This document shows positions 1 to 20,030 of a stretch of 40,453 nucleotides of DNA, piece by piece; the first letter of the stretch is position 1, and each line of letters starts with the position of its first letter. Source of the DNA: a virus; the IMG/VR virus record IMGVR_UViG_3300036835_000336, positions 1 through 40,453 of that record. One strand, written 5' to 3'. Made by a program: the position numbers and the translations under genes. The notes beneath the pieces were generated by a model. The model worked only from the letters and a program-made list of their open reading frames with translations. It was not told where the DNA came from and did not search any database.

Positions 1-118
1 TAGCGCCGCCAGACCGCCCACCGCACGCCAGAAACGCCCCAAAACGCCCCCAGACAGCCCGGCACGCCGCCGCGCACGCCCAAAACCGCCGCAAAACGCC
101 GTTTTCTTCGCGCGCGAG
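1..118. repeat. left copy of the 118-base terminal direct repeat
   Basis: Bases 1-118 are identical to 40336-40453. The repeat means that the sequence closes into a circle. It is either a true short terminal redundancy of the packaged phage DNA or the overlap left when a circularly permuted genome is assembled; sequence alone cannot decide. The join lies only about ten bases upstream of the small-terminase candidate start (40325, minus strand), where a packaging site would be expected. An inverted repeat, CGCGAGC-TT-GCTCGCG, at 113-128 straddles the inner edge of this copy. Confidence 0.97.
7..100. repeat. helically phased CGCC iterons, candidate packaging site
   Basis: Inside the terminal repeat the tetramer CGCC begins at 7, 15, 26, 35, 45, 65, 77, 87 and 97, with a degenerate AGCC at 56, giving steps of 8-12 bases and a mean of about 10. 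Several copies are flanked by AAA or AAAA, so the motif reads roughly AAACGCCCC. One-turn spacing places every copy on the same DNA face and phases the short A-tracts. The array lies directly upstream of a ribbon-helix-helix protein that is probably the small terminase. RHH proteins typically bind tandem short repeats, so a pac or cos site, or an autoregulatory operator, is the natural inference. Confidence 0.55.
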
Positions 119-174
119 CTTGCTCGCGGGGGAGGGACGGCGCGAGGAGGGGATGCCCCCCTATGGTCGTTCAG

Positions 175-215
175 CCGGGGCGGGTGCGAGCTCTGTCCGG
201 GCGAGCCCGCCCCGG
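175..215 (-). terminator. GC-rich hairpin at the end of the leftmost minus-strand gene
   Basis: A perfect 10-base inverted repeat (CCGGGGCGGG at 175-184 and CCCGCCCCGG at 206-215) encloses a 21-base loop. It starts directly after the stop of the minus-strand gene 220-507. There is no U-tract, as is common in high-GC bacteria, so termination is inferred from position and stem stability. It would also insulate the packaging region and the late genes from early transcription. Confidence 0.6.
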
Positions 216-219
216 TGCC

Positions 220-507
220 TCACTCGCTTGAGGTCAGGTCTTCGAGGAGGTTGCCGATGGCGCTGAGCGTCCGGCCCTCGCGTCCGTCGCGTGGGACGCT
301 GACGTGGACCATGTCCTCCTCGATGCTGATGCTGGTGCCTGGGCCGGCGAGTGCCTCGCCCTCCTCCTCGAGCTCCTCGTCCTCGAGCTCTCCGTCTGGC
401 TCTGGCTCTGGCTCCTCCTGCCCCTGCTCCTCCTCCTGCTCTGGCTCCTGGGGCTGGGCCTCCTCGTCTTCTGCCTGGGCCTTGCGGCCTCGCTTCGCCT
501 GCGGCAT
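220..507 (-). CDS. acidic Glu/Pro/Gln-rich protein of unknown function
   Basis: A 95-residue protein with a short basic start (MPQAKRGRK), a long acidic middle rich in Glu, Gln and Pro (about residues 12-52), and a more ordinary C-terminal segment (about 55-95, including SISIEEDMVHVSVP) that could fold into a small beta-rich domain. GAGGAG upstream of the ATG is a good ribosome binding site. It is the last gene of the minus strand and diverges from the small plus-strand genes that start at 579. I do not recognise the family. The strong negative charge would fit a DNA-mimic or a flexible acidic linker, but nothing shows this directly. Confidence 0.6.
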   Translation of the reverse strand: MPQAKRGRKAQAEDEEAQPQEPEQEEEQGQEEPEPEPDGELEDEELEEEGEALAGPGTSISIEEDMVHVSVPRDGREGRTLSAIGNLLEDLTSSE

Positions 508-578
508 CTGGCTGCTCTCCTCTGCGTCGGGGTCTCTGGCGCATCGGTACCCGCTGCGGGCTGTACGCTCGCGCCGCG

Positions 579-779
579 ATGCTCGAGCTCGAGCTCCGCG
601 AGGGCGGGCTGCGGGTGGTCGGCGATGCCGATGCTCTGCGGGCTCTGGCCTCGCTGCTTCTTGAGGCGGCCATCGTGGGGAGCTCGAGCAGGCGGGTGCG
701 CAACGGGACGATCTGGGTCGAGCGGGTAGACGAGGCGGGCGAGGCGGGCGAGGGGGTCGAGCGCGACGGCGGCGGGTAG
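579..779 (+). CDS. small plus-strand protein, unknown function
   Basis: A 66-residue ORF starting MLELELREGGLRVVGD. It resembles a small alpha/beta protein with a C-terminal Glu/Gly-rich tail. The start is preceded by a plus-strand GTACCCG at 547-553, the leader motif found upstream of the phage's early genes, although a convincing TAnnnT -10 box is not visible and the ribosome binding site is weak. It ends ten bases before the ATG of the next plus-strand gene, so the two look like a small operon diverging from 220-507. No family recognised. Confidence 0.5.
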   Translation: MLELELREGGLRVVGDADALRALASLLLEAAIVGSSSRRVRNGTIWVERVDEAGEAGEGVERDGGG

Positions 780-788
780 GCCTCGAGC

Positions 789-953
789 ATGGGCCTGCTC
801 CTGATCATCCTGGGGCTTGTGCTCTGGCTCGCGCTGGGCTGGGCGGTCGTCGGCATCGTGCTGCTGATCGTTGGCCTGGTGCTGCTGTTCGCTCCGTGGC
901 CTGGCGCCTATGGCTATGGCTACTACCGCGACCGCCGGGCACCGCCCCCGTAG
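789..953 (+). CDS. small membrane protein with two short hydrophobic segments
   Basis: A 54-residue protein, almost entirely hydrophobic from residue 2 to about 37 (MGLLLIILGLVLWLALGW, then VVGIVLLIVGLVLLFAPWP), ending in a Tyr/Gly- and Arg-rich tail (YGYGYYRDRR). This is the layout of the short hydrophobic proteins with a glycine-tyrosine tail common in actinobacteria and their phages. It probably sits in the host membrane as a hairpin of two helices. A holin-like or superinfection role is conceivable but not shown. It follows 579-779 by nine bases on the plus strand, and two hairpins lie downstream. Confidence 0.7.
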   Translation: MGLLLIILGLVLWLALGWAVVGIVLLIVGLVLLFAPWPGAYGYGYYRDRRAPPP

Positions 954-998
954 ACCCTCGACTGGTGCGCGCCTCTCTCGTCCACGTATGCTGGCCGC

Positions 999-1108
999 GG
1001 GGGTGGGAGCGGACGGCTCTAGCGGACCGGGCTCCCGCCCCCTAGGCTGACGCTCGAGCTCGCGGCTGATACCTACTGGCCCCGGCCTGGCCCTCTTGTG
1101 CTGGGGCC
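999..1108. terminator. two hairpins between convergent small operons
   Basis: The stretch between the plus-strand gene ending at 953 and the minus-strand gene ending at 1157 contains no convincing gene. It holds two hairpins. One has a 12-base stem with a single G-T pair (999-1010 with 1031-1042). The other has GGCCCCGG at 1078-1085 pairing with CTGGGGCC at 1101-1108 and followed by TTTCC on the plus strand. Their position between converging units fits terminators working in both directions. Confidence 0.6.
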
Positions 1109-1156
1109 TTTCCGACGCCGCACCGTAGCCCCAGCCCGGCCGGGGGCGGCCTCTCG

Positions 1157-1366
1157 TCAGGGTGCGCCGGGGCCGCGGGCTCCCCAGGGCCAGAGCGCGA
1201 CGGAGCTCGCCGTCCCCTGCATCAGCGGCCGGGCGAGCGCCCAGCACTCAGCGCAGAGCAGGACGGGGCGGTCGTTGAGCAGGATGACGGCGGGGGGCGC
1301 GTGGCAGATCCAGCAACGGTCACGCGGGTACCCGGGTAGGGTGCTCCGCCCTATGGCAGGAGGCAC
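1157..1366 (-). CDS. small zinc-finger-like protein, start uncertain
   Basis: The frame carries a CWIC...CAEC pair (two CxxC knuckles 18 residues apart), which suggests a small zinc ribbon, and ends in a Gly/Pro-rich tail. There is no ATG near the end of the preceding HNH gene; the best available start is the GTG at 1366, giving about 69 residues and a 47-base overlap with the HNH gene. The overlap is unusually long for this genome, so either another non-standard start or translation by frameshift from the HNH gene is possible. I do not know its function. Confidence 0.45.
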   Translation of the reverse strand: MPPAIGRSTLPGYPRDRCWICHAPPAVILLNDRPVLLCAECWALARPLMQGTASSVALWPWGARGPGAP

Positions 1367-1607
1367 AGAGGAGCTCGAGGTTGGCGGGGTCGAGACCTCG
1401 AGGCCCAGACGGGCCCCCGTGGTCGCGGTGGTGCGCGACCAGATGGCGGCTCGAGCCGCAGCGTTCGCAGGCCCCTCGAGCCGCCGCTTGCGCCGCGGCG
1501 CGCCGCCACGCCCGCGTTCCATACGCGGCGGCGTGCTGGGCGCAGTGGCGCTTGCCTGGCTCCGCGAGCTCGACGCAGCGGGGCGCCGCGCACAGCGGGC
1601 GGAGCAC
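1320..1607 (-). CDS. HNH endonuclease
   Basis: A 95-residue protein with a complete HNH/zinc-finger layout: CERC, then HLVAHHRDH carrying the His pair, then NLELLCASCH. These are the two CxxC knuckles and the catalytic His-Asn-His core of small phage HNH nucleases, which nick or cut DNA in packaging, replication or as homing enzymes. An additional N-terminal Cys pair (about residues 6 and 22) may bind a second zinc. Start is GTG, overlapping the TAG of the upstream gene (TAGTG) with GGAGG five bases before. It is one of two HNH genes here; the other is at 15055-15381. Confidence 0.85.
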   Translation of the reverse strand: MLRPLCAAPRCVELAEPGKRHCAQHAAAYGTRAWRRAAAQAAARGACERCGSSRHLVAHHRDHGGPSGPRGLDPANLELLCASCHRAEHPTRVPA

Positions 1608-1933
1608 TAGGCCTCCGGGGCTGCGGCCCTGCGCCGGGAGCGCGGCCTGGGCGCCGGCGGCGCTTCCTCCACAGCCGCCGGCTCTGCTTCCTCCACAGCC
1701 GGCGCCGGCGCTTCCTCCACACCGCCGTCCGCCGCTTCCTCCACAGCCGGGCTCTCCGCTTCGTCTGCGGGCTCTCTCAGCCGGCCGGCGAGCGCGCGGA
1801 GTTGGTCTGCGAGCTCCTCCGGCGTGGCGTTCGGGTCGGGGGCGGGCTCGCCGGCCTGCGCCAACGCAACGTCTGCGACGGCCTCGAGGAGCGGCGCGAG
1901 CGGGCTTGCCTGCAAGTGGAACGGCAGGCGCAT
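1607..1933 (-). CDS. unknown protein with Pro/Glu/Ala repeats
   Basis: A 108-residue protein. The first about 65 residues look helical (MRLPFHLQASPLAPLLEAVADVAL...). The rest is an acidic repeat region with variants of PAVEEA at about residues 64-93, and the chain ends in a basic RPRSRRRAAA tail. At the DNA level the repeats show as a recurring CTTCCTCCACAGCCG-like sequence between about 1663 and 1749. A good ribosome binding site (GGAGG) precedes the ATG. The function is unknown; repeat number may vary between related phages. Confidence 0.65.
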   Translation of the reverse strand: MRLPFHLQASPLAPLLEAVADVALAQAGEPAPDPNATPEELADQLRALAGRLREPADEAESPAVEEAADGGVEEAPAPAVEEAEPAAVEEAPPAPRPRSRRRAAAPEA

Positions 1934-1943
1934 CGCCTACCTC

Positions 1944-2096
1944 CTACGGGCCGGCCGGCGGTGCGGGGTTGCCCAGGCGCGCGGCCGTGGCGTCAGCGAT
2001 CGTCTCATCCGTGACCGTCGCGCTCTCCTGCTCGAGGGTCGTCACCGTCGGGTCGTTGGGGTGCTTTGCCCCCAGCGTTTGCACGGGCAGCGCCAT
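1944..2096 (-). CDS. small hypothetical protein
   Basis: A 50-residue ORF (starts MALPVQTLGAKHPNDPTV, ends in a Pro/Gly tail). AGGAGGG lies seven bases ahead of the ATG, the stop comes ten bases before the next start, and its codon use matches its neighbours, so I consider it real. It has no recognisable domain. Confidence 0.6.
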   Translation of the reverse strand: MALPVQTLGAKHPNDPTVTTLEQESATVTDETIADATAARLGNPAPPAGP

Positions 2097-2129
2097 CGCG
2101 GTCCCTCCTGGGTTCGGGTTGGCGCGATG

Positions 2130-2420
2130 CTACCGCGAGCTCGAGCGGCGCCGCTTGCGTGTCCCCGGCCGGCTGAGGACGCCCTTCTGGGGCCCGACGG
2201 TAGGGATGGCGTTCCCCCACTTGCGCCGGACGGCTCTCGCGACCGTCCGGTAGGAGCCGGCCGTCCCGCTCTGGCCGGCGCGCGCGAGAGCGTTGCGGGC
2301 CCGCGCCTTCGTGTCGATGGGGTACAGGCCGCGGCCCTTGCCTCCGACGGGGCTCGAGGGCGGGTAGACGAACGCTGAGGCCGGAAGCTTCTTGCGCCGG
2401 GCCGCCTTGAGCGGGGGCAT
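2130..2420 (-). CDS. actinophage protein with a KLP...RYPID-type domain (DUF6582-like)
   Basis: A 96-residue basic protein. Residues 10-70 carry the pattern LPASAFVYPP...LYPIDTKARARNALARAGQSGT...VARAVRRKWG. This matches a small domain common in actinophages and often found beside capsid or protease genes; its role is not established. It is followed by a basic Ser/Arg tail. I chose the ATG at 2420 because the longer upstream frame runs antisense-like through the neighbouring gene. Basic charge hints at nucleic-acid contact. Confidence 0.65.
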   Translation of the reverse strand: MPPLKAARRKKLPASAFVYPPSSPVGGKGRGLYPIDTKARARNALARAGQSGTAGSYRTVARAVRRKWGNAIPTVGPQKGVLSRPGTRKRRRSSSR

Positions 2421-2430
2421 GAGCGCGAGG

Positions 2431-2739
2431 CTACTCCTGCGCGCGCCTGCCCGCCTCCGGGTCGCCGATGGTGCGCAGCTTCGCCTCGCGATCCTCGAGG
2501 CCGGCGAGTTCGTTGAACCCCTCCGCCAGCGCAACCCCCCACATGGCGCCCAGTTGGCCGGGCCCCCAGCGCCTCCCGGCCGGCATGTCGGCACGGAGGA
2601 GCTCGAGCGGCACGGCGACGACGGAGCGGGCCTCCCTGCCGTCGATGAGGGCGTCGATGTAGAGGCCGACGCTGCCGCCGGCCGGCCTGCCGGCGACGAC
2701 GGGCGGCGGCCCCGTAGCGATGCTCTGCACCTCGATCAT
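2431..2739 (-). CDS. hypothetical protein
   Basis: A 102-residue protein (MIEVQSIATGPPPVV...). The middle resembles a small beta-rich domain (SVGLYIDALIDGREARSVVAVPLELL) followed by a helical C-terminus. No family recognised. The stop codon TAG of the upstream gene lies inside its GGAG ribosome binding site, which suggests coupled translation. The same arrangement, GGAGTAGCCTCGC, recurs at the end of this gene before the next start. Confidence 0.65.
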   Translation of the reverse strand: MIEVQSIATGPPPVVAGRPAGGSVGLYIDALIDGREARSVVAVPLELLRADMPAGRRWGPGQLGAMWGVALAEGFNELAGLEDREAKLRTIGDPEAGRRAQE

Positions 2740-2750
2740 GGGCGGCGAGG

Positions 2751-3050
2751 CTACTCCTCGAGCTCGACGAACGCCCGACCCTCGCTCAGCCGGCCGCGGA
2801 GCCCCGCCTGCCGGATGGCGCTGTAGGCGAGGGCGTTCTCGCCCTGTAGGACGCGGCCCTCCTCGCCCCGGGGAGCCCGCCTGGTGCCGATGCGTCCGTA
2901 GAGCTCGCCCTCGATGCGGCGCCGCTCGTAGAAGTGCTCGCGCGCCTGCGGGTCGCGGGCCCAGACCTCAGCGACGGTCCTGGGGCCACCCATCAGCGCG
3001 TAGACATGGACGAGGAGGCCGCCCTCGACGGCGATGTAGCGGTCGGTCAT
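2751..3050 (-). CDS. hypothetical protein
   Basis: A 99-residue protein beginning MTDRYIAVEGGLLVHVYALMGGPRTVAEVW. The predicted layout is two beta strands, then helices rich in Arg and Glu. GAGGAGG precedes the ATG by about seven bases, and the ATG overlaps the TGA of the upstream gene (ATGA). No family recognised. Confidence 0.65.
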   Translation of the reverse strand: MTDRYIAVEGGLLVHVYALMGGPRTVAEVWARDPQAREHFYERRRIEGELYGRIGTRRAPRGEEGRVLQGENALAYSAIRQAGLRGRLSEGRAFVELEE

Positions 3051-3298
3051 GCCGCCGCCCTCCTCGAGCGCGGCGGCCGGCGGCTCTCGACGCTCTCGAC
3101 GGTATCGAGGCGCACCTCGCGGCCCCCGATGACGTACGTGGGGTCCTTGCCCCAGTTGGCGCGGCACTGCGTCACATGCCCCAGGATGCGCCCTCCGTCG
3201 CGGCGCTCGACAGCGACGAGGACGTCACGGGCCATCGCGTAGTTGAGGCGGTATGCGAGGTCGCAGCGTTTGCGGAGCAGCCAGTCGGGTAGCGGCAT
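3047..3298 (-). CDS. hypothetical protein
   Basis: An 83-residue protein, MPLPDWLLRKRCDLAYRLNY followed by a likely small beta barrel (DVLVAVERRDGGRILGHVTQ...TYVIGGREVRLDTVESVE) and a basic tail. The ATG at 3298 has AGGAGG nine bases upstream. It is the first gene after the candidate promoter at 3318-3337 and heads a unit running down to about 1157. The strand pattern could fit an SH3- or Tudor-like fold, but this is weak. Confidence 0.65.
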   Translation of the reverse strand: MPLPDWLLRKRCDLAYRLNYAMARDVLVAVERRDGGRILGHVTQCRANWGKDPTYVIGGREVRLDTVESVESRRPPRSRRAAA

Positions 3299-3312
3299 TG
3301 GGAGAGCCTCCT

Positions 3313-3352
3313 GGGGGCGGGTACGCGCCGGATGGTAGCCGTACCCGCCCCC
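3313..3352 (-). promoter_or_regulatory. early-type promoter embedded in a 13-base inverted repeat
   Basis: On the minus strand TACCAT (3337-3332) is followed after exactly seven bases by GTACCCG (3324-3318), the same layout as the other early promoters. Here the GTACCCG lies in a perfect 13-base inverted repeat, 3313-3325 and 3340-3352, with a 14-base spacer that contains the -10 box. The right arm begins six bases after the Rpf-like gene ends, so the hairpin may also terminate that gene's transcript. A regulator could bind both arms. Confidence 0.55.
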
Positions 3353-3357
3353 TGAGC

Positions 3358-3696
3358 TCAGCGGTAGCCGCAAACAGGCCAGGGCGCGTAGCCGGCCCGC
3401 CTGATGAGCAGGACTGCGCGGTACTTCTGCTCGAGCTCTGAGTTGCGGTGCGGGTAGCCGCGGCCACCAACGCTCCACCATGTGCTGAGCGTGAATTGAA
3501 GGCCCCCGTAGAAGCCGTTGCCCGTCGCGATGTACCAGCGGCCGGTGCTCTCGCACTGGGCCATACGCTCGAGCTTCGCGTTGTAGGGGCGGACGACGCG
3601 CCAGCGGTTGAGGGCTAGCGCGGGGGCCGGGAGTGCGAGCAGGAGAGCGGCGCTCGCGACCGCGATGAGGCGGGACATGACTGGAACCGCGGCCAC
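3358..3696 (-). CDS. secreted Rpf-like muralytic (transglycosylase-like) protein
   Basis: A protein of up to 112 residues. An N-terminal signal peptide (MSRLIAVASAALLLALPAPALA) is followed by a single transglycosylase-like domain: MAQCESTGRW with the catalytic Glu (E49) next to the first Cys, then NGFYGGLQFTLSTWWSVGG and PWPVCGY with the second Cys. This matches the core of actinobacterial resuscitation-promoting factors, which cleave peptidoglycan outside the membrane. It has its own early-type promoter at 3763-3787 and is far from the lysis genes. The start may be the GTG at 3696 or the ATG at 3678; the latter begins at the signal peptide. It could help lysis, exit from dormancy, or spread. 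Confidence 0.85.
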   Translation of the reverse strand: MAAVPVMSRLIAVASAALLLALPAPALALNRWRVVRPYNAKLERMAQCESTGRWYIATGNGFYGGLQFTLSTWWSVGGRGYPHRNSELEQKYRAVLLIRRAGYAPWPVCGYR

Positions 3697-3762
3697 CTCT
3701 CCGGCGAGAGCGCCTCCTCAGCGCCGCCGGCCGTGGCCGGGGGATGCCTCCTTCCTGGGGGC

Positions 3763-3787
3763 GTCGGGTACGTGGGGCGGCAGCCTA
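3763..3787 (-). promoter_or_regulatory. early-type promoter for the Rpf-like gene
   Basis: Minus-strand TAGGCT (3787-3782) followed after ten bases by GTACCCGAC (3771-3763). The -10 box touches the 3' end of the methyltransferase gene. The spacing is the longest in the set, so it may be a weaker member. Transcription would start near the GTACCCG, about 70 bases before the Rpf-like start. Confidence 0.5.
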
Positions 3788-4894
3788 CTAGGCCGCCATA
3801 GGCGTGCAGAGCGCCGCGGCCTCGCGGGGGTCGCCCTTGACGAAGACGAGGAGCGTCTGGTGGACGCGGGCGATCTTCCCGGAGCCCCGGAGGTAGCGCC
3901 CCACGCGCCGCGGGGCGGTACCGACGCTCGTGGCGAGAATGACCTCGTTGTAGTAGCCCAGGTGCTCCTCGTCGAAGATGCGGATCGTCTCCTGCACCAG
4001 CCCGCGGTACAGGCCCGGCGGAGGCTTGCGCACCTCGCCTACGACGAAGGCGGCGAACCGGTTCGGCAGGAGGCGCGAGCAGGCGTCGGCGATGGCGTTC
4101 TCGTAGCCCTCGAGGAACTCCTCCCACCCCATCTGGGAGAGGTCGCGGGGGTCGTCGGAGTAGCGCTCGAGGTCGGCATACGGGGGGCAGCTGAAGACGA
4201 AGTCGTAGCCGCGGCCTACCTCCTCCGGCGGCTGGCGGGCGTCGCCCTCGAGCCAGCGGGGGCGCTCCACGACGCCGCCCGCCGGGTGCCGGCGCCCATA
4301 GCGCCCCCGGGGGCCGAAGATGCTCATCGCCTGCCGGCGGTTGGCGACGACCTGCTCGCCGCGGAGCTCGACGCCGGTGTAGGGGCGCTCGAGGACGGAG
4401 GCGACGATGCCGCGGCAGGCGCCGCCAGCGAACGGGTCGTAGACGCGGCCCCCTGGCGGGCACCACCAGCGGTAGGCGGCCTCCGCGAGAACGGGGTCGA
4501 AGATGCTGGTCGACCGCTCGATGCTGCCGGCCCGCTCGCTCTGCTCATACAGGCCGCTCTCGAGGAACTCCCGCGTCGAGAGCGAGCGGCCCAGCGCGGC
4601 CTCCGCGACCGCCTTCTTCTCGTAGAACGAGCCGTCGCGCATGTTGGCGGGGAAGTTGAGGAGGTTGTCGTCGCGGCCGATGAACGTCTCCGGCTCGATG
4701 CCCAGCGCCTCCCACTCGCGCCGGCGGTCGAGGTGCTCCTCCGCCATGACGTGCATGACGGAGAACGGCAGGACGAGGAACTGGTCGCGGAGCGTCTTGT
4801 TGGCGACGCCAGCGCGGCCGGCCTCCCCTAGCTCGAGCATCTGCTGGGGCGGCGGCGCGAGCTCGCGGCGGTTCAGCACGGGCGTTTCGGTCAT
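3788..4894 (-). CDS. DNA methyltransferase, N4-cytosine/N6-adenine type
   Basis: A 368-residue protein. DPFAGGACRG (153-162) is the SAM-binding motif I with GVEL following as motif II, and DFVFSCPPYADLE (231-243) carries the catalytic (S)xPPY motif IV. Motif I precedes motif IV, as in gamma-class enzymes. The first about 130 residues are an extension that may read DNA or regulate. It transfers methyl groups from S-adenosylmethionine to exocyclic amines in DNA, probably to protect phage DNA from restriction. Start at 4894 (MTETPVLNRRE) follows TAGGAGG, in which the TAG is the stop of the upstream micro-gene. The target site cannot be read from sequence. Confidence 0.88.
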   Translation of the reverse strand: MTETPVLNRRELAPPPQQMLELGEAGRAGVANKTLRDQFLVLPFSVMHVMAEEHLDRRREWEALGIEPETFIGRDDNLLNFPANMRDGSFYEKKAVAEAALGRSLSTREFLESGLYEQSERAGSIERSTSIFDPVLAEAAYRWWCPPGGRVYDPFAGGACRGIVASVLERPYTGVELRGEQVVANRRQAMSIFGPRGRYGRRHPAGGVVERPRWLEGDARQPPEEVGRGYDFVFSCPPYADLERYSDDPRDLSQMGWEEFLEGYENAIADACSRLLPNRFAAFVVGEVRKPPPGLYRGLVQETIRIFDEEHLGYYNEVILATSVGTAPRRVGRYLRGSGKIARVHQTLLVFVKGDPREAAALCTPMAA

Positions 4895-4904
4895 GCGGGG
4901 CCTC

Positions 4905-4994
4905 CTAGTGGGTGCCAACGAAAACGAGGAGCGCGACGACGCCGCAGAGGAGCAGGCAGCAACAGCAGACGAAGAAGACTGCGGGCCCGCTCAC
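4905..4994 (-). CDS. 29-residue Cys-rich single-span membrane peptide
   Basis: Starts at GTG overlapping the TGA of the upstream gene (GTGA) and stops with a TAG that is part of the next gene's ribosome binding site. The peptide VSGPAVFFVCCCCLLLCGVV... is one hydrophobic helix with five Cys residues, four of them consecutive. The exact overlaps on both sides support translation. Function unknown; palmitoylation-like modification or metal binding would be speculation. Confidence 0.5.
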   Translation of the reverse strand: MSGPAVFFVCCCCLLLCGVVALLVFVGTH

Positions 4995-5314
4995 GCATCG
5001 AACGGTACGGGCGCCCCGTCGTCTACGACGGCGGCTATGAGCTCGATTTGGTGCTCCGTCAGGCGCTCGAGCGGCCGGTAGGGGCTGACGCCCACGGCGG
5101 CGAGGAGCGTGCCGGCGCGGTGCGGGCCCCAGCGCGGCCACCAGAGCAGGGCGTCGTGGACGGTCACGGTAGGGCTCGTGGGCCGCCGGGCGGCCTGCCG
5201 GAACGGGAGCTCGCCGGCGGCGACGGCCCGCCTCGTGGCCGCCATGCTCGCCTTCTTCTTGTTGGCGAGCTCGAGGGCCCGCTTGACCTGCTCGCGGCGC
5301 TCCTGCTCGTTCAT
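4991..5314 (-). CDS. hypothetical protein
   Basis: A 107-residue protein. The basic helical N-terminus MNEQERREQVKRALELANKKKASMAATRRAVAAGELPF is followed by a compact domain, TVTVHDALLWWPRWGPHRAGTLLAAVGVSPYRPLERLTEHQIELIAAVV. The second half resembles a helix-hairpin-helix or H2TH-like segment of DNA-binding proteins (HRAGTLLAAVGVSPYRPLERLT), similar in flavour to integration host factor mIHF of actinobacteria. I propose an mIHF-like DNA-binding role with low certainty. The ATG overlaps the RusA stop (ATGA). Confidence 0.7.
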   Translation of the reverse strand: MNEQERREQVKRALELANKKKASMAATRRAVAAGELPFRQAARRPTSPTVTVHDALLWWPRWGPHRAGTLLAAVGVSPYRPLERLTEHQIELIAAVVDDGAPVPFDA

Positions 5315-5799
5315 GGCTCGAGCCTCCACGCCTGGATGCGGACGCCCGGCTCCCGCCCGTACGTTTTGGCGACGGCGAGCTCGCAGACCGCGGCGTCGTC
5401 GGCGTACAAGATGCCGGTCAGCGCATCCTCGACGGCGCGCGCGAGCTTCAGCGCATCCGGCCGCGGCGTAGGCCGCTTCGGCGCGGAGTCGCGGAGCCGC
5501 CCTGCGTTGCGTCCGGAGCCGTAGTGGCCCTGCGGGCGGGCCCGGACGAAGACGAGCGCCAGCCGGCAGGCCTGCAACCGCGGGCCCCCGTAGACGCGCA
5601 TGACGACCTCGCGGACGTCCTCGCGCCAGGCGGCGCCCTCCGGGCCGCTCGAGTCCTTCGTAAACGTGACGATGCGGCCGTCGGCGCGGCGGATGGGCTC
5701 CCGCTGGCCGTCGGCGCCCTTGCGGTAGGAGACGCCGCTGGTCTTGCTCCCGGCGGGACGAGCTCGCCCAGCGACGAAGACGTCGAGGACCTCACGCAT
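5311..5799 (-). CDS. RusA-family Holliday junction resolvase
   Basis: A 162-residue protein. The C-terminal half shows RusA features: PRPDALKLARAVEDALTGILYADDAAVCELAVAKTYGREPGVRIQA, in which Asp residues (PDALK, and ADDA) bind the catalytic metal, preceded by VVMRVYGG...LALVFVRARP, which fits the core beta strands. RusA resolves four-way DNA junctions made during recombination and replication, so packaging is not blocked by branched DNA. The ATG at 5799 overlaps the end of the upstream gene by eight bases. Confidence 0.85.
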   Translation of the reverse strand: MREVLDVFVAGRARPAGSKTSGVSYRKGADGQREPIRRADGRIVTFTKDSSGPEGAAWREDVREVVMRVYGGPRLQACRLALVFVRARPQGHYGSGRNAGRLRDSAPKRPTPRPDALKLARAVEDALTGILYADDAAVCELAVAKTYGREPGVRIQAWRLEP

Positions 5800-6301
5800 C
5801 GAACAGCGCCTCCGTTGCGGGCTCTGAGGGGTAGGCGAGCGGCGCCTGCGCGCACCATGACGCCCAGGCGTGGGCGACGGCGCCGGACCCCGGGTAGAGG
5901 TCCTCGAGCTCGTCGCCTGGCAGGCAGCCCAGGCAGTCAAACAGCCAGTAGCAGAACTCGAGCGGCTTCGCCCCGGCCACGCCCTGCCGGAGCGTCATCG
6001 GCGCGACGAGGTAGTCGCGGGGCGTCTGCCTCGCCCCGGAGAGGTTGCGCCCTCCCCAGAGGAGGATGGGCTCCCAGGCGTGGGCGGGGTAGACGTGGCG
6101 CTTCCAGGCCGCGAACGACTTGCACCAGGCGAGGATGCGTACCGGCTCGCCGCCCAGGAGCCGCAGGAGCGCCGGCAGCGAGGGGACGGAGCAGGAGAGC
6201 GCCCAGCCGTCGGGGAACTCCGACACCAACCTCGTCAGGAGCTCCTCATGGTCGACCTCCCCCGCGTAGTCGGGGTGCTGCTCGTAGTGCTCGAACCTCA
6301 C
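5792..6301 (-). CDS. DNA-methylase-family protein lacking motif IV
   Basis: A 169-residue protein. It matches the C-terminal part of a phage DNA methylase family: DGWALSCSVPSLPALL, VRILAWCKSFAAWKR, HAWEPILLWGGR, then KPLEFCYWLFDCLG...DELEDLYPGSGAVAHAW, with the SAM-binding (F/Y)PGSG motif near the end. In full-length members a DPPY/W catalytic motif comes before the HPDYAGEVDHEELL segment. Here the GTG at 6301 starts directly at that segment, so the motif is missing and the protein may be inactive or work with a partner. The GTG overlaps the upstream stop (GTGA). Confidence 0.7.
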   Translation of the reverse strand: MRFEHYEQHPDYAGEVDHEELLTRLVSEFPDGWALSCSVPSLPALLRLLGGEPVRILAWCKSFAAWKRHVYPAHAWEPILLWGGRNLSGARQTPRDYLVAPMTLRQGVAGAKPLEFCYWLFDCLGCLPGDELEDLYPGSGAVAHAWASWCAQAPLAYPSEPATEALFDA

Positions 6302-6738
6302 GGCCGGCCCCCAGGCCCCAGCCGGCGCCGACGGGGCTCTGGGGCCTGCCTGCGTCGCTCCCAGGAGGCCTCGAGGCTCGCCCTGCCTGACGCCGACATC
6401 CCCATCTCGCGGACCTGGCGCCAGCCGTTGCGCCGGTAGCCGCAGAAGGCGAGCACCGTTGGGTGCATCTCCTCGAGGGCGCCGGCGAGAATCTGCGCCC
6501 ACGCCTCGAGCCAGGGCGGCGGGGCGGCGCGCACGTCGAGGCAGGCGCGGACGAGAGCCGCAGCTGACGGCCGGTAGTCGCGGCCCTCCTCGATGAGGAG
6601 CCGCAGGCCGCCGGCGAGCTCCTCGTCGCTGTACTCCTCGAGGAGCCCGCGGTAGACGAGCGCCTGCGTCTCCGTCATCTCTGGCCGCCACGCCTCGTTG
6701 AGGACGAGCAGCGTGGCCGCCCACCCCTGCTCCGTCAT
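6298..6738 (-). CDS. probable replicative-helicase loader
   Basis: A 146-residue protein from MTEQGWAATLLVLNEAW. The N-terminal helical domain follows the pattern of phage helicase loader/inhibitor proteins (G39P-like): TETQALVYRGLLEEYSDEELAGGLRLLIEEGRDYRPSAAALVRAC. The C-terminus is basic and Pro/Arg-rich (WERRRQAPEPRRRRLGPGG). Such proteins bring the host DnaB-type helicase to the phage origin. It overlaps the initiator-like gene just upstream (ATGA) and lies near the candidate origin at 7158-7737, which supports the call. Identification is from pattern only. Confidence 0.55.
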   Translation of the reverse strand: MTEQGWAATLLVLNEAWRPEMTETQALVYRGLLEEYSDEELAGGLRLLIEEGRDYRPSAAALVRACLDVRAAPPPWLEAWAQILAGALEEMHPTVLAFCGYRRNGWRQVREMGMSASGRASLEASWERRRQAPEPRRRRLGPGGRP

Positions 6739-13960: not shown

Positions 13961-14175
13961 CAGAGCCCCCGCTCCCGCCGGATGCGGGCTACCTCGAGGA
14001 GGTCGAGCTCCTGCCCCAGCCGCTCGAGGGCGTCGGCGGGGCCGCCGCCGATGAACTCCCGGCCGGCGAGCTCTGCGCTGGCGGAGCCCCCGGGGGAGCC
14101 CGTGGCGTCTACGACCCGGGCCCCCCACTCGTCGTCGTCGCGCCGCAGCGCGATGCGGATGCTCTCCTCGCTCAT
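13960..14175 (-). CDS. small hypothetical protein
   Basis: A 71-residue protein, MSEESIRIALRRDDDEWGARVVDATGSPGGSASAELAGREFIGGGPADALERLGQELDLLEVARIRRERG. The layout of a short beta hairpin followed by a helix is reminiscent of HicB-type small domains, but a match is not certain. ATGA overlap with the transglycosylase-like gene upstream. Confidence 0.6.
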   Translation of the reverse strand: MSEESIRIALRRDDDEWGARVVDATGSPGGSASAELAGREFIGGGPADALERLGQELDLLEVARIRRERGL

Positions 14176-14984
14176 GCCGCCACCTCCGTGCGGGCCAGCG
14201 CGCGCTCTACGAGCTCGCGGTGGAGCTCGAGCCGGGCGGCCGGCGCCTCGAGCTCGAGCGCGCGGTTGAGGTTCGCGATCGCGCGCGTCAGGCCGGAGCG
14301 CTGGCCGGCGAGGTGCAGGCGGCGCGCCTCAGCGGCGCGGTCGACCCAGGCGAGCCCGCCGTCGAGGTACGTCTTGCGGAAGCGCGCCCACTTGCTCCCG
14401 TCGAAGGAGTCGGCGGCGCCGGTAGCGACGATGAGGTCGAAGCGGCGCTTCGTGTTGACGCGGCCCCAGTGGACCCAGAGCCCCAGGCGCTTCGCCTCGC
14501 GGGCGAGCTCCGCGGCCTCCGGGCCCTCCTTCCACTCCGTGCTGCCGCCGATGAACAGCGCCTCGAGGCGCGGCGCGAGCTCGCGGAGCTCTGAGAGCTC
14601 GAGGCCGTCCTGCGCGACGAAGGCGAGCGGCAGGCCGCGGCGCTCGAGCTCAGGCGCCCAGCGGTCGAAGCTCTCGCGGGTAGCGGCGGCGTCGCCTACG
14701 ACGTCGGGGACGGAGACGAACAGGCAGCCCGGCAGCCCCTCGAGGCGGTCGAGCATGTTGACGAACTTGCGCTCATCGAGGCCCTGGAAGCAGTCGTTGT
14801 CGGCGGCCCAGGGGATGCCGGCCTCCGCGGTGAGCTCGACGCTCGAGAGGTGGCGGGGCTGTAGCAGCCGGCCCAGGCGCGGGTGGACGGCCTCGCCGTT
14901 CGGGCCGGGGTGCTGGTGCAGGCTGGGGTGCGCCGTCGTCACCAAGATGATCGGGGCGGCGGGGGCGTCGGTCGGGCGGGGCAT
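14172..14984 (-). CDS. tRNA-guanine-transglycosylase-like protein (TGT/DpdA-like)
   Basis: A 270-residue protein resembling phage proteins annotated as queuine tRNA-ribosyltransferase-like, with a TIM-barrel style order of motifs: IPWAADNDCFQGLD (57-70, the ADND being a likely catalytic Asp), FVSVPDVVGD (89-98), FVAQDG (122-127), LFIGGSTEWKEG (143-154), VHWGRVNTKRRFD (171-183) and ADSFDGSKWARF (191-202). TGT enzymes swap guanine for 7-deazaguanines in tRNA; DpdA relatives do so in DNA. No preQ0 synthesis genes are visible here, so the substrate would come from the host or be different. The early promoter at 15024-15002 lies directly upstream. Confidence 0.7.
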   Translation of the reverse strand: MPRPTDAPAAPIILVTTAHPSLHQHPGPNGEAVHPRLGRLLQPRHLSSVELTAEAGIPWAADNDCFQGLDERKFVNMLDRLEGLPGCLFVSVPDVVGDAAATRESFDRWAPELERRGLPLAFVAQDGLELSELRELAPRLEALFIGGSTEWKEGPEAAELAREAKRLGLWVHWGRVNTKRRFDLIVATGAADSFDGSKWARFRKTYLDGGLAWVDRAAEARRLHLAGQRSGLTRAIANLNRALELEAPAARLELHRELVERALARTEVAA

Positions 14985-15054: not shown

Positions 15055-15381
15055 TTAGCCCCCGGGGTCGGGGAGCCGCTCGAGCTCCTCCTCCGCCCAG
15101 GCGAGCCGGAGCTCGAGGCGTGGGTCGGGGCCGTCGTAGCGGCGCGAGAGGTAGGAGTAGGCGCGCGGGCCCAGCCGCTCGAACGCGTAGTCGAGGCAGC
15201 GCTCCGGCAACTGGTCGACGCGGATGCGCTTGCTCCTCGCGTGGTAGCCGTAGTGGCACTCGAGGCAGAGCGAGACGAGGTTCCGGGGGTCCGTCGTCCC
15301 GCCGTGCTGCTCCCAGACGACGTGGTGCTCCTGGCACCAGCGCCGCTCGCCGCAGCGCAGACAGCGCCGCTTACGCGCCAT
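15055..15381 (-). CDS. HNH endonuclease
   Basis: A 108-residue protein: CLRCGERRWCQEHHVVWEQHGGTTDPRNLVSLCLECHYGYH (residues 7-47) contains both CxxC knuckles, the EHH core and the Asn/His of HNH nucleases. The C-terminus is helical (RLELRLAWAEEELERLPD). It may nick DNA during replication or packaging, or be a mobile homing-type insertion between the oxygenase and the transglycosylase-like gene. The ATG overlaps the end of the oxygenase gene by 11 bases. Confidence 0.85.
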   Translation of the reverse strand: MARKRRCLRCGERRWCQEHHVVWEQHGGTTDPRNLVSLCLECHYGYHARSKRIRVDQLPERCLDYAFERLGPRAYSYLSRRYDGPDPRLELRLAWAEEELERLPDPGG

Positions 15382-16582
15382 GCTGGGCGTGGTCGGGGAG
15401 CGCCTCCTCCGCCGCGGCCAGCGCGGCGACCGTCTCGTCCGTGGCGATGGCGTCGGCGACGAGGTGGATGCGCTGGCTCTCCCCGCCGTTGACGGCGGTG
15501 TGCGGCTTGCGGACGTCGAGGAAGTAGACGCCGCCGCGGCGCATGACGAGACTCCGCGGGACGCCGTTGAGGTCCCAGGAGCGGAAGACGACCTCCGGGT
15601 TCGTTACGAGCGGGATGTGGAGGCGGACGAGCCGGCCGGGCTCCGCCCCTGCGTCGGCGTCGGTGATGTCGGCGTGGCGCTCGAGCTCGCCGCCGCCAGG
15701 CGCCAGGCTCATCAGCCTGATGCGCTCGAACTGCTCGCAGGGGAGGGCGGCGAGGATGGGCTCGACCGCCTTCAGCTGCTCCCGCAGCGGCGTGTCGCGC
15801 GGCTCGAGCTCGAGGTCGGCGGGGTGCTCGCGCTTCCACTTGCGGTTCATCTCCGCCGGCTTCTCGATGCGAGCGGGGTCGTCGTAGAAGCCCCGCAGGC
15901 TGAGCGCCGCCCAGGAGCCGCCCTTGTTGTAGGAGGAGTAGTGCTGCGCGTAGCCGCCGTCGAGGGCCTCGACCTGGGCGACGAGCGCGGAGAGCGCGGC
16001 CGGCGAGAGGATGCGCTCGAGGCGCGCGAGGCCGACGGCCTGGTGCTGCGGGTACGGGGGCGGCGCGAGGTCGCGGGGGACGTAGACGCCCCGCATCTCT
16101 GAGCTCGCCGCAATCTTGACGGCGGCGAGCGCGAGCTCGAGGGCGTCGGCGAGGAGCCGCTCCCCTGGGTGCTCCTGCCAGAGCTCAAGCGCGAGTCGCC
16201 GGCGAGCGCCGGCGAGCGTGGCGGCCACGGCCAGCCAGCCCTCCTCGCGCGTATGCCCCTGCCAGGCGACGCGGCTGACATGCCCCATGCCAGGCTCGAG
16301 GCGCAGGCGCGCGGAGCCGGTGAAGTCCTTGACGCCCTGCCGGCGCTGCATCGCGCGCGCCACGAGCGCCCAGAGCGGCCGGCCGTCCTCCGCCGGCGGG
16401 CCCCAGGCGATGCGGCCCTCCTCGAGGGCGCCGACGAGGTCGACCTCACTGAAGCGGCCGAAGCCGCCGTGGATCATCCCGGCGTCATGCTCCGCGAAGA
16501 CTGACGTCATACGCTTGAGCTCCTCGACGGAGTACCCCTTCGCCCACGCGGGCCCCTCATGCCCCTTCTCGAGCTCAGCCAT
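15371..16582 (-). CDS. GNAT-like domain fused to aspartyl/asparaginyl beta-hydroxylase-like oxygenase
   Basis: A 403-residue protein. The C-terminal domain (about 205-380) has the iron and 2-oxoglutarate pattern of the Asp/Asn beta-hydroxylase family: GGELERHADI with H303 and D305, RLHIPLVTNPEVVFRSWD, then FLDVRKPHTAVNGGESQRIHLV with H361 as third metal ligand and R371 for 2-oxoglutarate. The N-terminal 165 residues (IHGGFGRFSEVDLVGALEEGRIAW...VKDFTGSARLRLEPG) look like a divergent GNAT acyltransferase, with less certainty. Such oxygenases hydroxylate side chains or other substrates. Its place beside the transglycosylase-like gene suggests nucleic-acid modification, but a protein target is equally possible. 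Confidence 0.75.
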   Translation of the reverse strand: MAELEKGHEGPAWAKGYSVEELKRMTSVFAEHDAGMIHGGFGRFSEVDLVGALEEGRIAWGPPAEDGRPLWALVARAMQRRQGVKDFTGSARLRLEPGMGHVSRVAWQGHTREEGWLAVAATLAGARRRLALELWQEHPGERLLADALELALAAVKIAASSEMRGVYVPRDLAPPPYPQHQAVGLARLERILSPAALSALVAQVEALDGGYAQHYSSYNKGGSWAALSLRGFYDDPARIEKPAEMNRKWKREHPADLELEPRDTPLREQLKAVEPILAALPCEQFERIRLMSLAPGGGELERHADITDADAGAEPGRLVRLHIPLVTNPEVVFRSWDLNGVPRSLVMRRGGVYFLDVRKPHTAVNGGESQRIHLVADAIATDETVAALAAAEEALPDHAQHGA

Positions 16583-17657
16583 TCGTCATCCCCTCGATCT
16601 CTGCGTCGTCGGCCAGTTTGTGCAGGCCGAAGCGCCGGCCCGTCGCGTACCCCTCGAGGTTGCGGCTGACCTTCCAGCCCAGCACCGCCTCCCCGCGGTC
16701 GGAGCGGACCACGATGGGGCCGTTGTCGCTCACCCAGGCCTTGAGCGCCTTCGTCCGCCGCTCTTTGACCGCATCGGCGACCACCCACTCCGCCGCCCAG
16801 TTCTGGGCGACCTCGAGGTTGCTGATGCCGCCGGCGCCTCGCTGCTCCCGGCTGGCGGGGCAGTGGGCGGGACGCGGGCAGTAGCGGCAGTGGGCGCCGG
16901 GCTGCGGCTCCCAGCGGCCCGTCGCCTTCGCCTCCTCGAGGCCGGCGATGCCGGCGAGGAGCTCAGCCTCGACCTCCTCGAGGTCGCCGCGGTAGAGCGT
17001 TGCCTCGCGCACCTCGTCGACGAGCGGGTACTGCTCCCGCAGCGTGCAGCGCTCGAGGCCCGGGTACGTCTTCAGCACGAGGTAGCCGTAGCTCCTCTGC
17101 TGGAAGTAGCCGCGCTCGCTGATGGCGCTCTTCGGCGGGACCGCCCACGTCAGCTTGTAGTCGAGGACGATGCCGCCGCCGGGCGGGTCTGCGAGCAGGG
17201 CGTCGGGCTGGCCCGTCAGTTGGACGACCTCGCCCGTGTGCGGGAGGTAGAGGTCGGCGTAGAGGCGGTGCTCGACCTGGACGAGGTGCTCGATCGTCCA
17301 GGAGTTGTTGAGCGCCCACTTGATGCAGGCGACCCGTACGTTGCGGAGGTACCGGGCCGGCACATGCGGGGCGCCTGGCGCCACCATCTGCTCGTTGAGG
17401 ATGGCGAGGCAGTCCTCCGGCGAGATGCGCGGCTCGCGCTCCCGCCGCATCGTTCTCAGCGCCTCCGCGAACGTCGCGTGCATAAGCGTGCCGGCCGCGG
17501 CCTCCGGGCCCTGGATGTCTGGGCTCTCGAGCCGCCACTTGGTCGCCAGCGGGCAGTTGTCCCAGGAGGCGAGAACGCTCTGGCGGTACAGGCCGTCGGT
17601 GCCGTCGCCTGGCATCTCGAGCGAGCTCGAGGGCCTCGCGGTCGCCACGGCGCTCAT
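16575..17657 (-). CDS. Cas4/RecB-like exonuclease with Fe-S cysteine set
   Basis: A 360-residue PD-(D/E)XK nuclease. GTLMHATFAEAL gives the conserved His (H60), LTGQPDAL the first Asp (D152), IVLDYKLTW the D-x-K pair (D166, K168) and QRSYGYL the QxxxY motif. One Cys near the N-terminus (NCPL, C35) plus three near the C-terminus (C257, C260, C266 in HCRYCPRPAHC) match the four-Cys iron-sulfur cluster of Cas4, AddB and related nucleases. It resects double-stranded ends so that the RecT-like protein encoded just upstream can anneal single strands. Confidence 0.85.
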   Translation of the reverse strand: MSAVATARPSSSLEMPGDGTDGLYRQSVLASWDNCPLATKWRLESPDIQGPEAAAGTLMHATFAEALRTMRREREPRISPEDCLAILNEQMVAPGAPHVPARYLRNVRVACIKWALNNSWTIEHLVQVEHRLYADLYLPHTGEVVQLTGQPDALLADPPGGGIVLDYKLTWAVPPKSAISERGYFQQRSYGYLVLKTYPGLERCTLREQYPLVDEVREATLYRGDLEEVEAELLAGIAGLEEAKATGRWEPQPGAHCRYCPRPAHCPASREQRGAGGISNLEVAQNWAAEWVVADAVKERRTKALKAWVSDNGPIVVRSDRGEAVLGWKVSRNLEGYATGRRFGLHKLADDAEIEGMTNG

Positions 17658-19114
17658 GCCCGACTCTCGTAGGCGTCGATGGCGGCCCTGAGCTCCGCGA
17701 TGTTGGAGTCGACCTCGTCGACGCTCATGCCCTGCCCCTCGAGGTACTCCGGGTCTGCCTTGACGTCCTGCCAGTAGGCGAGGTCGGCTCTGAGCTCCTC
17801 GAGGTTGGCCTCCGGGACGGAGGAGGCGGCGGGCTCGAGCTCTGGGAGCTCAGTCGGCGCGTCGGGGTCCTCCGCCGCGGGCGGCTGCTCCGGCTCGAGG
17901 GGGTGCTGCGGCTCCTCCGGCTCCGGCTCTGGCGCCGGCCCCGGCTCCGGCTCCGTCGGGGGCGGTTCTGGCTCAGACGGCGCGGGCTCCTCCGCCGGCG
18001 GCTCTGGCTCCTCCTCCCCGATCTCGACGCCCAGCGGAACCGTCGACTCCGGCGGCTCCTCCTCGCGCGCGGGCTGCGCGCGCGCCTCCTCCTGCGCCGC
18101 AAACAGCGCCTCGAGCGGCCCCCCAGCACCCGCCGGAGGGGGAGCCGGCGGGGCCGGAGGCTCCGTCGTCCCTTCCGGAGGCACTGGCGCCGAATCGGGC
18201 CCAGGCGGGGCAGCCTGCGGCTCCTCCGGCGTCTCCTCCACAACTACGGCATCTGCTACCTCCTCGCGCCCCCCGTCGGGAGAGGCGACGAGAGTGGCGA
18301 GCTCGCCCTCGAGGCGCCGGGCGAGCGCGGCGACCATGACGGCGTCCTGGCCGCGGACGAGCAAGTCGATGGAGCCCGGGCTGTAGGAGTTGGGGGCCGC
18401 GGCGTTTATGGCGGCGAACAGCGGCTCGAGCTCCTGGCGGGCCTCGCTCGAGGGCCAGCCGATGTCGACGTCGAGGCTGACCTCGCCGGCGGCGCGCTCC
18501 TCGTTGAGCTCGACCTCGCCCTCGACAACGACGCCAGACAGCGGGATCGCCATCCGGAGCGCCTGGCGCTCAGCGGCGGCGAGAATCATGACGGAGCGCT
18601 GCGACCCCCACGGCGAGTACTTCAGCTTCGCCTCGCTGGTGGGGAGGTACTCCTCGAGCGGCGCGTAGAAGTAGCCGTAGGAGTCGGCGGTGCGCACCTC
18701 GCACCAGGCGCCCACGATCTGGCCCCGCCCCTTCTGCGAGCCGTTGTAGCCGTGCTCGATCTCCCGCGTCCCGTCCTTCAAGCGGTCGACGGTGAAGGAG
18801 TCGTTCTCGCGGACGATGTCGCCGTCGACGGAGGCATGAGCTCGCCGCGCGAGCTTCCGCAGGCCGTCGCGGCCGACCATGATGAGCAGCCGGCCGGTCC
18901 CTCCGTCTTTGCGCTCCGTCTTGACGCACCAGATCTCCCGCGCGAACGGGTCGAGGCCGTACCGGGCAGCGAGCTCGAGGAACATCCCTAGCTCCGCGTC
19001 GGTGGCGCCCTCCGCGACGGTGGCCTTGATGAGGCGGACTTGCTCCGGCTCGTAGTCGTAGCGGCGCCGGCGGAGCGCGGCCTCGTCTGGCGATACGACT
19101 TGGACGTCAGTCAT
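17654..19114 (-). CDS. recT: RecT-family single-strand annealing recombinase with long Pro/Glu tail
   Basis: A 486-residue protein. Residues 20-200 form a RecT domain (EGATDAELGMFLELAARYGLDPFAREIWCVK, LIMVGRDGLRKLARR, then YLPTSEAKLKYSPWGSQRSVMILAAAERQALRMAIPL). Residues about 290-440 are low-complexity Pro/Glu/Ala, and a short helical domain ends the chain (NLEELRADLAYWQDVKADPEYLEG...NIAELRAAIDAYES). Typical RecT proteins have about 270-330 residues, so the tail is an extension. RecT pairs complementary single strands for recombination and possibly genome circularisation. It is the first gene behind the early promoter at 19155-19132. Confidence 0.88.
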   Translation of the reverse strand: MTDVQVVSPDEAALRRRRYDYEPEQVRLIKATVAEGATDAELGMFLELAARYGLDPFAREIWCVKTERKDGGTGRLLIMVGRDGLRKLARRAHASVDGDIVRENDSFTVDRLKDGTREIEHGYNGSQKGRGQIVGAWCEVRTADSYGYFYAPLEEYLPTSEAKLKYSPWGSQRSVMILAAAERQALRMAIPLSGVVVEGEVELNEERAAGEVSLDVDIGWPSSEARQELEPLFAAINAAAPNSYSPGSIDLLVRGQDAVMVAALARRLEGELATLVASPDGGREEVADAVVVEETPEEPQAAPPGPDSAPVPPEGTTEPPAPPAPPPAGAGGPLEALFAAQEEARAQPAREEEPPESTVPLGVEIGEEEPEPPAEEPAPSEPEPPPTEPEPGPAPEPEPEEPQHPLEPEQPPAAEDPDAPTELPELEPAASSVPEANLEELRADLAYWQDVKADPEYLEGQGMSVDEVDSNIAELRAAIDAYESRA

Positions 19115-19388: not shown

Positions 19389-20030
19389 CTATGGGGCGGA
19401 TGCCACGAGGCAGACGACGACCGTAGCCGTTGCCTCCGGGTTGCGCTGGTGGATGTCCATCGTCGTGCGGGTAGAGCCGGGCGGGCAGTTGAACCCCTGG
19501 CCGTTGTCGCCCTGGCCCGGTGGTCCCTGCGGGCCCTGCGCGCCGGGCGGCCCCTGCGGGCCAGGAGCTCCGGGCTCGCCGCGCTCCCCCTGCGGGCCCT
19601 GCGCGCCGGGCGGCCCGACTGCCCCCGTCGCTCCCTGCGCTCCCGTCGCGCCTCGAGCGCCGGTAGCGCCGTCCTGGCCGGCCGCCCCCGTCTCGCCCTG
19701 CGCCCCGGTCTGGCCGGCCACGCCCCGGAGCCCCCGCGCGCCGCGCTGGCCCGCCGCTCCCGCGTTGCCGGCCGCTCCCGCGGGCCCTGGGTCCCCCGTC
19801 GGGCCCGACGCCCCAGAACGCCCCGTAGGGCCCCTGGCGCCGGCGGCGCCCCGGCTCCCCTTCGGCCCCTGCTCCCCCTGCGGGCCCGGGGGCCCGATGG
19901 CGACGGGCGGCGTCTGCGCGGAGGCGCGCTGCGACCCCGGGCCCGCGTTGGCTGCCATGACGGCCGCGGTACCGGCGCCGACGCCGATGAGGCCGGCATA
20001 GAGGACGACGAGCCAGAGCGCGCGGGTCAT
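19389..20030 (-). CDS. membrane-anchored collagen-like protein
   Basis: A 213-residue protein. One N-terminal transmembrane helix ([24 protein letters not shown]) is followed by about 43 Gly-X-Y triplets (roughly 45-175, such as [13 protein letters not shown]) that should form a collagen-like triple helix. A short C-terminal domain follows with two Cys residues ([15 protein letters not shown]...VVVCLVAS). Phage collagen-like segments are usually in tail fibres; here the protein would be anchored in the host membrane with its rod outside, or the helix could be a cleaved signal peptide. It lies last in the late/lysis transcript. Role unknown. Confidence 0.85.

Follow-up and report, generated by a model that had tools for sequence, protein, structure and literature searches.

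Thymidine hypermodification in phages is encoded by cassettes that combine a Tet/JBP oxygenase or hmdU gene, an hmdU kinase, an ADDT/aGPT-Pplase and tailoring enzymes. The tailoring enzymes known from these systems are radical SAM enzymes, PLP decarboxylases, flavin-dependent lyases and acetyltransferases; PALP enzymes act on amino acids. It is established that ADDT and the kinase act in thymidine hypermodification (Lee et al. 2018/2022). For Rhodococcus phage Tonitrus, a gene set that includes one hypothetical gene has been described as a system for thymidine hypermodification (PMC11955845). We analyzed a stretch of viral DNA of 40,453 nucleotides (IMG/VR record IMGVR_UViG_3300036835_000336, positions 1 to 40,453; hereafter the window), which encodes a two-domain protein, the target, composed of a GNAT-like half and an AspH-type 2-oxoglutarate (2OG) oxygenase half. 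Unlike the thymidine hypermodification cassettes, the window, which may be a fragment, contains no Tet/JBP, kinase or ADDT gene that we could find among its ORFs, and no ADDT gene was found in the contig of its closest relative, L001, either.

The target ORF starts with ATG and encodes 403 amino acids, and its GC content by codon position (0.78/0.49/0.95) resembles that of the window's other genes. It lies in a gene run ordered exonuclease, target, HNH, in which the target start overlaps the exonuclease stop and the target stop overlaps the HNH start (Table 1). A DNA-level search of this region against phages gave zero matches, and no PHROG matched the target protein in a profile search. Searching with the single sequence turned up one close relative, L001, at 70% identity; the two target genes differ at 86, 83 and 150 first, second and third codon positions, indicating that the reading frame is under selection. 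Elsewhere in the window, an ORF at 5792-6724 (-) encodes a second methyltransferase-like protein of 310 aa with the motif DLYPGSGAVAHAW and no Pfam match, and a collagen-like GXX-repeat protein with a hydrophobic segment at its N-terminus is encoded at 19389-20030 (-).

Table 1. Features of the window that bear on the target gene and its surroundings.
Feature	Position	Strand	Evidence
Target, two-domain GNAT-like / AspH-type 2OG oxygenase	15371..16582	-	ORF, Pfam, AF2 model
GNAT-topology domain, residues 1-180, degenerate acyl-CoA loop	16043..16582	-	AF2 secondary structure, weak GNAT Pfam matches
Fe(II)/2OG oxygenase domain, residues 181-403	15374..16042	-	PF05118, structure match, invariance
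Active-site codons	H303 15674-15676; D305 15668-15670; H361 15500-15502; R371 15470-15472	-	
HNH endonuclease gene, overlaps target 3' end	15055..15381	-	PF01844, E=1.7e-7
Transglycosylase/DpdA-like gene, start approximate	14172..14984	-	phrog_15826, E=1e-42
PD-(D/E)XK exonuclease, upstream neighbour, recombination setting	16575..17657	-	Pfam-type profile evidence
RecT-family annealing protein, genomic setting	17654..19114	-	Profile evidence
N6/N4-type DNA methyltransferase, cassette-B family, 376 aa, no ParB domain	3788..4918	-	E=1.1e-109

A preliminary description of this DNA had assigned the C-terminal half to the AspH-type oxygenases on the basis of an HxD...H...R set, and our results agree. 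PF05118 (Asp_Arg_Hydrox) matched residues 282-378 of the target (E=3.2e-6; score 27.5 bits, curated cut-off 22.6 bits) and was matched by 32/36 family members, the best at 5e-17. All of the aligned members (36/36) share H303, D305, H361, R371 and R320, all but one (35/36) have H322, and Y218, W224, P242, E244, M245, R287, R289, D356, R358 and P360 are also invariant; at the level of sequence, the HxD...H...R active site is complete. In an AlphaFold2 (AF2) model built with 36 sequences (pLDDT 92.6, pTM 0.90; an earlier model with 5 sequences, pLDDT 44, was discarded), the C-terminal domain is a double-stranded beta helix of the AspH/proline-hydroxylase type. The structure search used the whole target model and its results are dominated by the oxygenase domain, for which VIA-align Z ranged from 14.9 to 16.1: Cpz10 of caprazamycin (7v4f/7v4m) reached 16.1, L-proline cis-4-hydroxylase (4p7w/4p7x) 15.9 and human AspH about 15, with values less than 1 apart counted as tied. 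L-proline cis-4-hydroxylase also ranked first in the profile search of PDB sequences (E=2.2e-7), and an NCBIfam model of nonproteinogenic amino acid hydroxylases matched weakly, under its cut-off (E=1.5e-4).

The substrates of these nearest structural relatives are free amino acids or a free nucleoside that bears an amino acid, not DNA. Cpz10 and L-proline cis-4-hydroxylase, the top structural matches, are free-standing enzymes with about 20% identity to the target and no GNAT-like domain; the substrate that Cpz10 hydroxylates is alpha-amino-beta-hydroxybutanoyl-glycyluridine (PMC9814697). Human AspH shares PF05118 with the target, and in it Arg735 and Ser668 serve the 2OG C-5 carboxylate while Arg688 and His690 lie near C-1 (PMC6817910). 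The AspH order H, RxH, H, R is kept in the target as H303, R320/H322, H361 and R371 (PMC6817910), and so is the spacing of ten residues between the final H and R. However, human AspH has only two Fe ligands (a two-His site), whereas the target has the full HxD...H triad with D305 as third ligand, and the TPR domain of AspH is absent from the target, whose N-terminal domain is modelled as mixed alpha/beta.

The same preliminary description had called residues 1-170 GNAT-like, and the AF2 model bears this out: the DSSP element order of residues 19-169 is a1-a2-b-b-b-a3-b-a4-b-b, as in GNAT proteins. Only 18 Pfam families match any N-terminal domain of the family, among them weak GNAT-clan matches (Acetyltransf_18, _3, _1 and FR47; best E 0.012), and positions 7-116 of PF00583 match the domain of the relative L026 (E=0.003). 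Matches to FRG, DpnI and GAP1-N2, each to single N-terminal domains, were taken as chance. The N-domain profile gave no credible match among PDB sequences; hhalign to Mu Mom returned a probability of 0.1% with a single sequence as its target, and hhalign to RimJ gave no match, a weak test in that RimJ was also a single sequence. The acylation step once proposed for this half lost ground. The acyl-CoA loop Q/RxxGxG/A is at its proper place in just 3/36 members (RxxGxA at the b4-a3 junction of L010, L014 and L022), and the window's protein reads RVAWQG there. In one branch of the family, clade A, just 10-15 residues separate b4 from b5, so that helix a3 is missing together with the loop. With the loop degenerate in the one case and absent in the other, acyl transfer by the N-terminal domain appears doubtful.

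A profile of the C-terminal domain retrieved 57 IMG/VR viral loci, and the family, window included, clusters to 39 groups at 90% identity. Every complete member has the same two-domain layout, identities to the window's protein reach down to about 25%, and locus GC ranges from 0.39 to 0.73. Two scans of 85k bacterial and archaeal genomes found no relative of the target, so the family looks viral. As had been suggested, it is rare in known phages: the sole member among 50,697 phage records is gp4 of Mycobacterium phage LilMcDreamy, a cultured phage of M. smegmatis mc2 155. LilMcDreamy gp4 is listed as a hypothetical protein, with an Asp/Asn/Pro hydroxylase domain in UniProt, and is a full-length homologue with the same two domains (predicted-structure TM 0.81/0.89); it differs in belonging to clade A, in a cassette unlike the window's, and in lacking helix a3. 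The tree splits clades A and B at 100/100 and places the window and L001 inside B at 100/98. One relative (L034:1109-2983) carries an apparent intein (C...WMAGILDGEGYV...HN) at the conserved HY|SSYN site of the oxygenase domain.

By clustering the ORFs that flank the target family loci we defined two cassettes. Cassette A (11 groups) comprises a ParB-like protein, a Tet/JBP oxygenase (PF12851, weak in most and above cut-off in one), an ADDT amino acid:DNA transferase (PF18724, E=2.7e-12), the target and a P-loop kinase (PF18751, Ploopntkinase3, E=3e-71). Cassette B (25 groups) comprises a ParB + N6/N4 methyltransferase (PF02195, ParB_N, and PF01555, N6_N4_Mtase), the target and a PALP-type PLP enzyme (PF00291) with a conserved GG(S/T)K lysine and a GSG loop. 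Motif IV of this methyltransferase is (S/T)CPPY, with Cys at the place that D, N or S takes in N6/N4 methyltransferases. Genes of cassette A or B are found within about 5 kb of the target in 36/39 groups, mostly adjoining it; the L008 locus is ended by the contig end, and the window and L001 are dispersed cases with partners further along the contig. The base rates of these genes by tblastn are low (17 transferases, 3 PLP enzymes and 25 methyltransferases in the 50,697 phage records). These results show that the family is found almost only in two kinds of DNA-modification cassette. Full-text literature searches found no description of the GNAT/AspH enzyme or of cassette B.

The target protein of the window belongs to the cassette-B clade, and a cassette-B methyltransferase is encoded in the same phage, on the target's strand at a distance of about 10.5 kb; its E value in Table 1 is for a match to a profile built from the methyltransferases flanking the target in other loci. 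This protein has DPFAGG as motif I and FSCPPY as motif IV, and it scores best against the methyltransferases of L014, L016 and L021/L022, whose target proteins are the sister group of the window's, which fits the expected joint inheritance. It is a probable functional partner of the target. The L001 contig carries on a single strand the target, a PLP gene (1127-1804) and a methyltransferase (39578-40702) 64% identical to the window's; if the contig is read as circularly permuted, target and methyltransferase would be about 10.9 kb apart, near the distance in the window. The PLP gene present in L001 was not found in the 40-kb window fragment.

The genes downstream of the target were identified as HNH and transglycosylase-like from profiles (Table 1), as the preliminary description had read them, and phrog_15826-type relatives of the second carry a DpdA-like annotation. 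The three-gene set that they were thought to form with the target is another matter: the HNH gene recurs only in L001 and the transglycosylase-like gene in none of the 57 related loci. Adjacency is thus not conserved, the set fails the co-occurrence test, and both genes are probably outside the system. Base exchange via a TGT-like gene was rejected because no such gene co-occurs with the target in other loci, and a queuosine/7-deazaguanine (DpdA) system because a DpdA-like gene is near the target in none of them. Relatives of the small transglycosylase/DpdA-like protein are scattered over mycobacterial, Arthrobacter, Rhodococcus, cyanobacterial, Vibrio and Erythrobacter phages. In the Erythrobacter phages R6L and ZS04 such a gene is a few kb from a methyltransferase-PLP gene, which, as one lineage only, does not rescue the base-exchange idea.

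In cultured phages the same pre-terminase locus holds alternative cassettes. Vincenzo, which shares its host with LilMcDreamy, has a ParB-methyltransferase and a PLP enzyme ('carboxylate deaminase') as gp1-2, and Phelemich has ParB, Tet/JBP, ADDT, a flavin (FAD)/NAD oxidoreductase and a kinase; LilMcDreamy has the GNAT/AspH protein in the slot that Phelemich gives to the oxidoreductase. In Wooper and Tonitrus a Rossmann-like protein follows the kinase in a ParB-Tet/JBP-ADDT-kinase cassette. Cluster B mycobacteriophages carry differing base-modification cassettes just before the terminase (L103, L102 and L002, bases 1-6000). Two labels in these phages stand beside other profile matches: gp2 of LilMcDreamy (L002:855-1787) and Phelemich (L102:810-1673), labelled 'queuine tRNA-ribosyltransferase', matches Tet/JBP, and gp5 (L002:3761-4333 and L102:3330-3869), labelled 'terminase small subunit', matches the hypermodification-type kinase (PF18751 / KIN profile). 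The ParB-methyltransferases of Erythrobacter phage ZS04 (L100:2326-4764) and of Pam4 (L104:4053-6542) are interrupted midway by a PALP-type PLP domain; this arrangement, in the Erythrobacter phages R6L and ZS04 and in Pseudanabaena phage Pam4, ties the two activities together. Since methyltransferase and PLP modules occur without a target relative in Vincenzo, Mae-JY30 and the Erythrobacter phages, the target protein is an accessory.

A base-modification role of the target family is well supported by this context. Within it, we regard the target as probably an oxygenase that tailors an amino-acid-like group carried by phage DNA bases. Both cassettes would first place such a group on the base. 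In cassette A, Tet/JBP would hydroxylate a 5-methyl pyrimidine, the kinase would phosphorylate it and the amino acid:DNA transferase would attach an amino acid; in cassette B, the ParB-guided methyltransferase-like enzyme and the PALP-type PLP enzyme would do the equivalent step. The AspH/proline-hydroxylase-type domain would then use O2, Fe(II) and 2-oxoglutarate to hydroxylate the base-borne group; the GNAT-shaped domain may position the modified base or, less likely, acylate it, and the final product would protect phage DNA against host nucleases. In the window's phage, with its dispersed genes, the methyltransferase and the tailoring oxygenase of this proposed pathway are present. We infer the amino-acid-like group and its hydroxylation from the role of ADDT and the kinase, the amino-acid nature of the closest oxygenases' substrates and the action of PALP enzymes on amino acids. 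Several observations count against this reading: PLP, ADDT, Tet/JBP and kinase genes are missing from the window, its methyltransferase stands 10 kb off and has no ParB domain, the nearest structural relatives do not act on DNA, and methyltransferase and PLP modules occur elsewhere without the target. Cassettes A and B are linked by the target enzyme that they share, which suggests that the base finally carries a similar group in both. Tentatively, the DNA base made by cassette B might belong to a new class: an amino-acid-like group would be placed on it without the hydroxymethyl-kinase-transferase route and then hydroxylated.

Part of this evidence could be read in other ways. By sequence and by fold the target comes closest to hydroxylases of free proline (4p7w/4p7x, 1e5r); these matches, together with the weak one to the nonproteinogenic amino acid hydroxylase model, would suit an oxygenase that hydroxylates a free amino acid or PLP product before the cassette attaches it to the base. 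We consider such a precursor role unlikely, because a GNAT-shaped fusion in every complete member and a slot held elsewhere by other oxidoreductase-like genes fit late tailoring better, and because Cpz10, the top match by Z, works on an amino-acid-bearing nucleoside. It is rather less likely still that the cassette-B oxygenase oxidizes, in AlkB/TET-like fashion, the methyl group that the ParB-methyltransferase places on adenine or cytosine. In its favour are the adjacency of the two genes in most cassette-B loci and the 2OG oxygenase fold of the domain. Against it, amino-acid hydroxylases are nearer to the domain than AlkB is, the PLP enzyme would have no explained role, and cassette A, which has no methyltransferase, is already provided with a Tet/JBP oxygenase, so that a function shared by the two cassettes would be lost.

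Mom has been described by jumbo-phage authors as a GNAT acylating N6-adenine (PMC7824862). The GNAT topology of the modelled N-terminal domain, and the RxxGxA loop kept in three members of the window's sister group, could point to a comparable enzyme whose N-terminal half acylates the base or adduct and whose AspH half hydroxylates the acyl group; but 33/36 members, the window's among them, have a degenerate loop, clade A lacks both loop and a3, and the profile comparison with the single Mu Mom sequence, a weak test, gave no match, so this too is improbable. The fold is also common to AspH and protein prolyl hydroxylases, as would be expected if the substrate were a host protein, for example EF-Tu or a protein of the ribosome; since the context is consistently one of DNA-base modification, and the target has no domain for protein binding of the kind that human AspH has in its TPR, we give this very little credence. 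The genomic context likewise offers no support for the tRNA or host-protein targets named in the preliminary description. Its pathway of transglycosylase exchange, acylation and hydroxylation by three adjacent genes hardly deserves any weight: the genes adjoin in the window, but in the window only, with the HNH gene common to L001 alone. What survives of that pathway is base decoration itself, by cassette context, and not the HNH and transglycosylase-like partners proposed for it.

Among described systems, the ParB-methyltransferase/PALP module of Vincenzo, R6L, ZS04 and Pam4 has a methyltransferase of the same family as the window's; the literature search found no published function for this module, and no GNAT/AspH relative was detected in those phages. 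By pointing out the second cassette, in which a ParB-methyltransferase and a PLP enzyme accompany the target, our analysis adds a module that may be chemically new. The clade-A members stand in exactly the set of genes that defines the thymidine hypermodification cassettes, which usually carry a further tailoring-like gene where the clade-A target stands. As a tailoring enzyme, the fusion of a 2OG oxygenase with a GNAT-like domain is unlike the classes known from thymidine hypermodification. The target family likely adds a new class to the tailoring enzymes of phage DNA hypermodification, as a new family inside a known kind of system.
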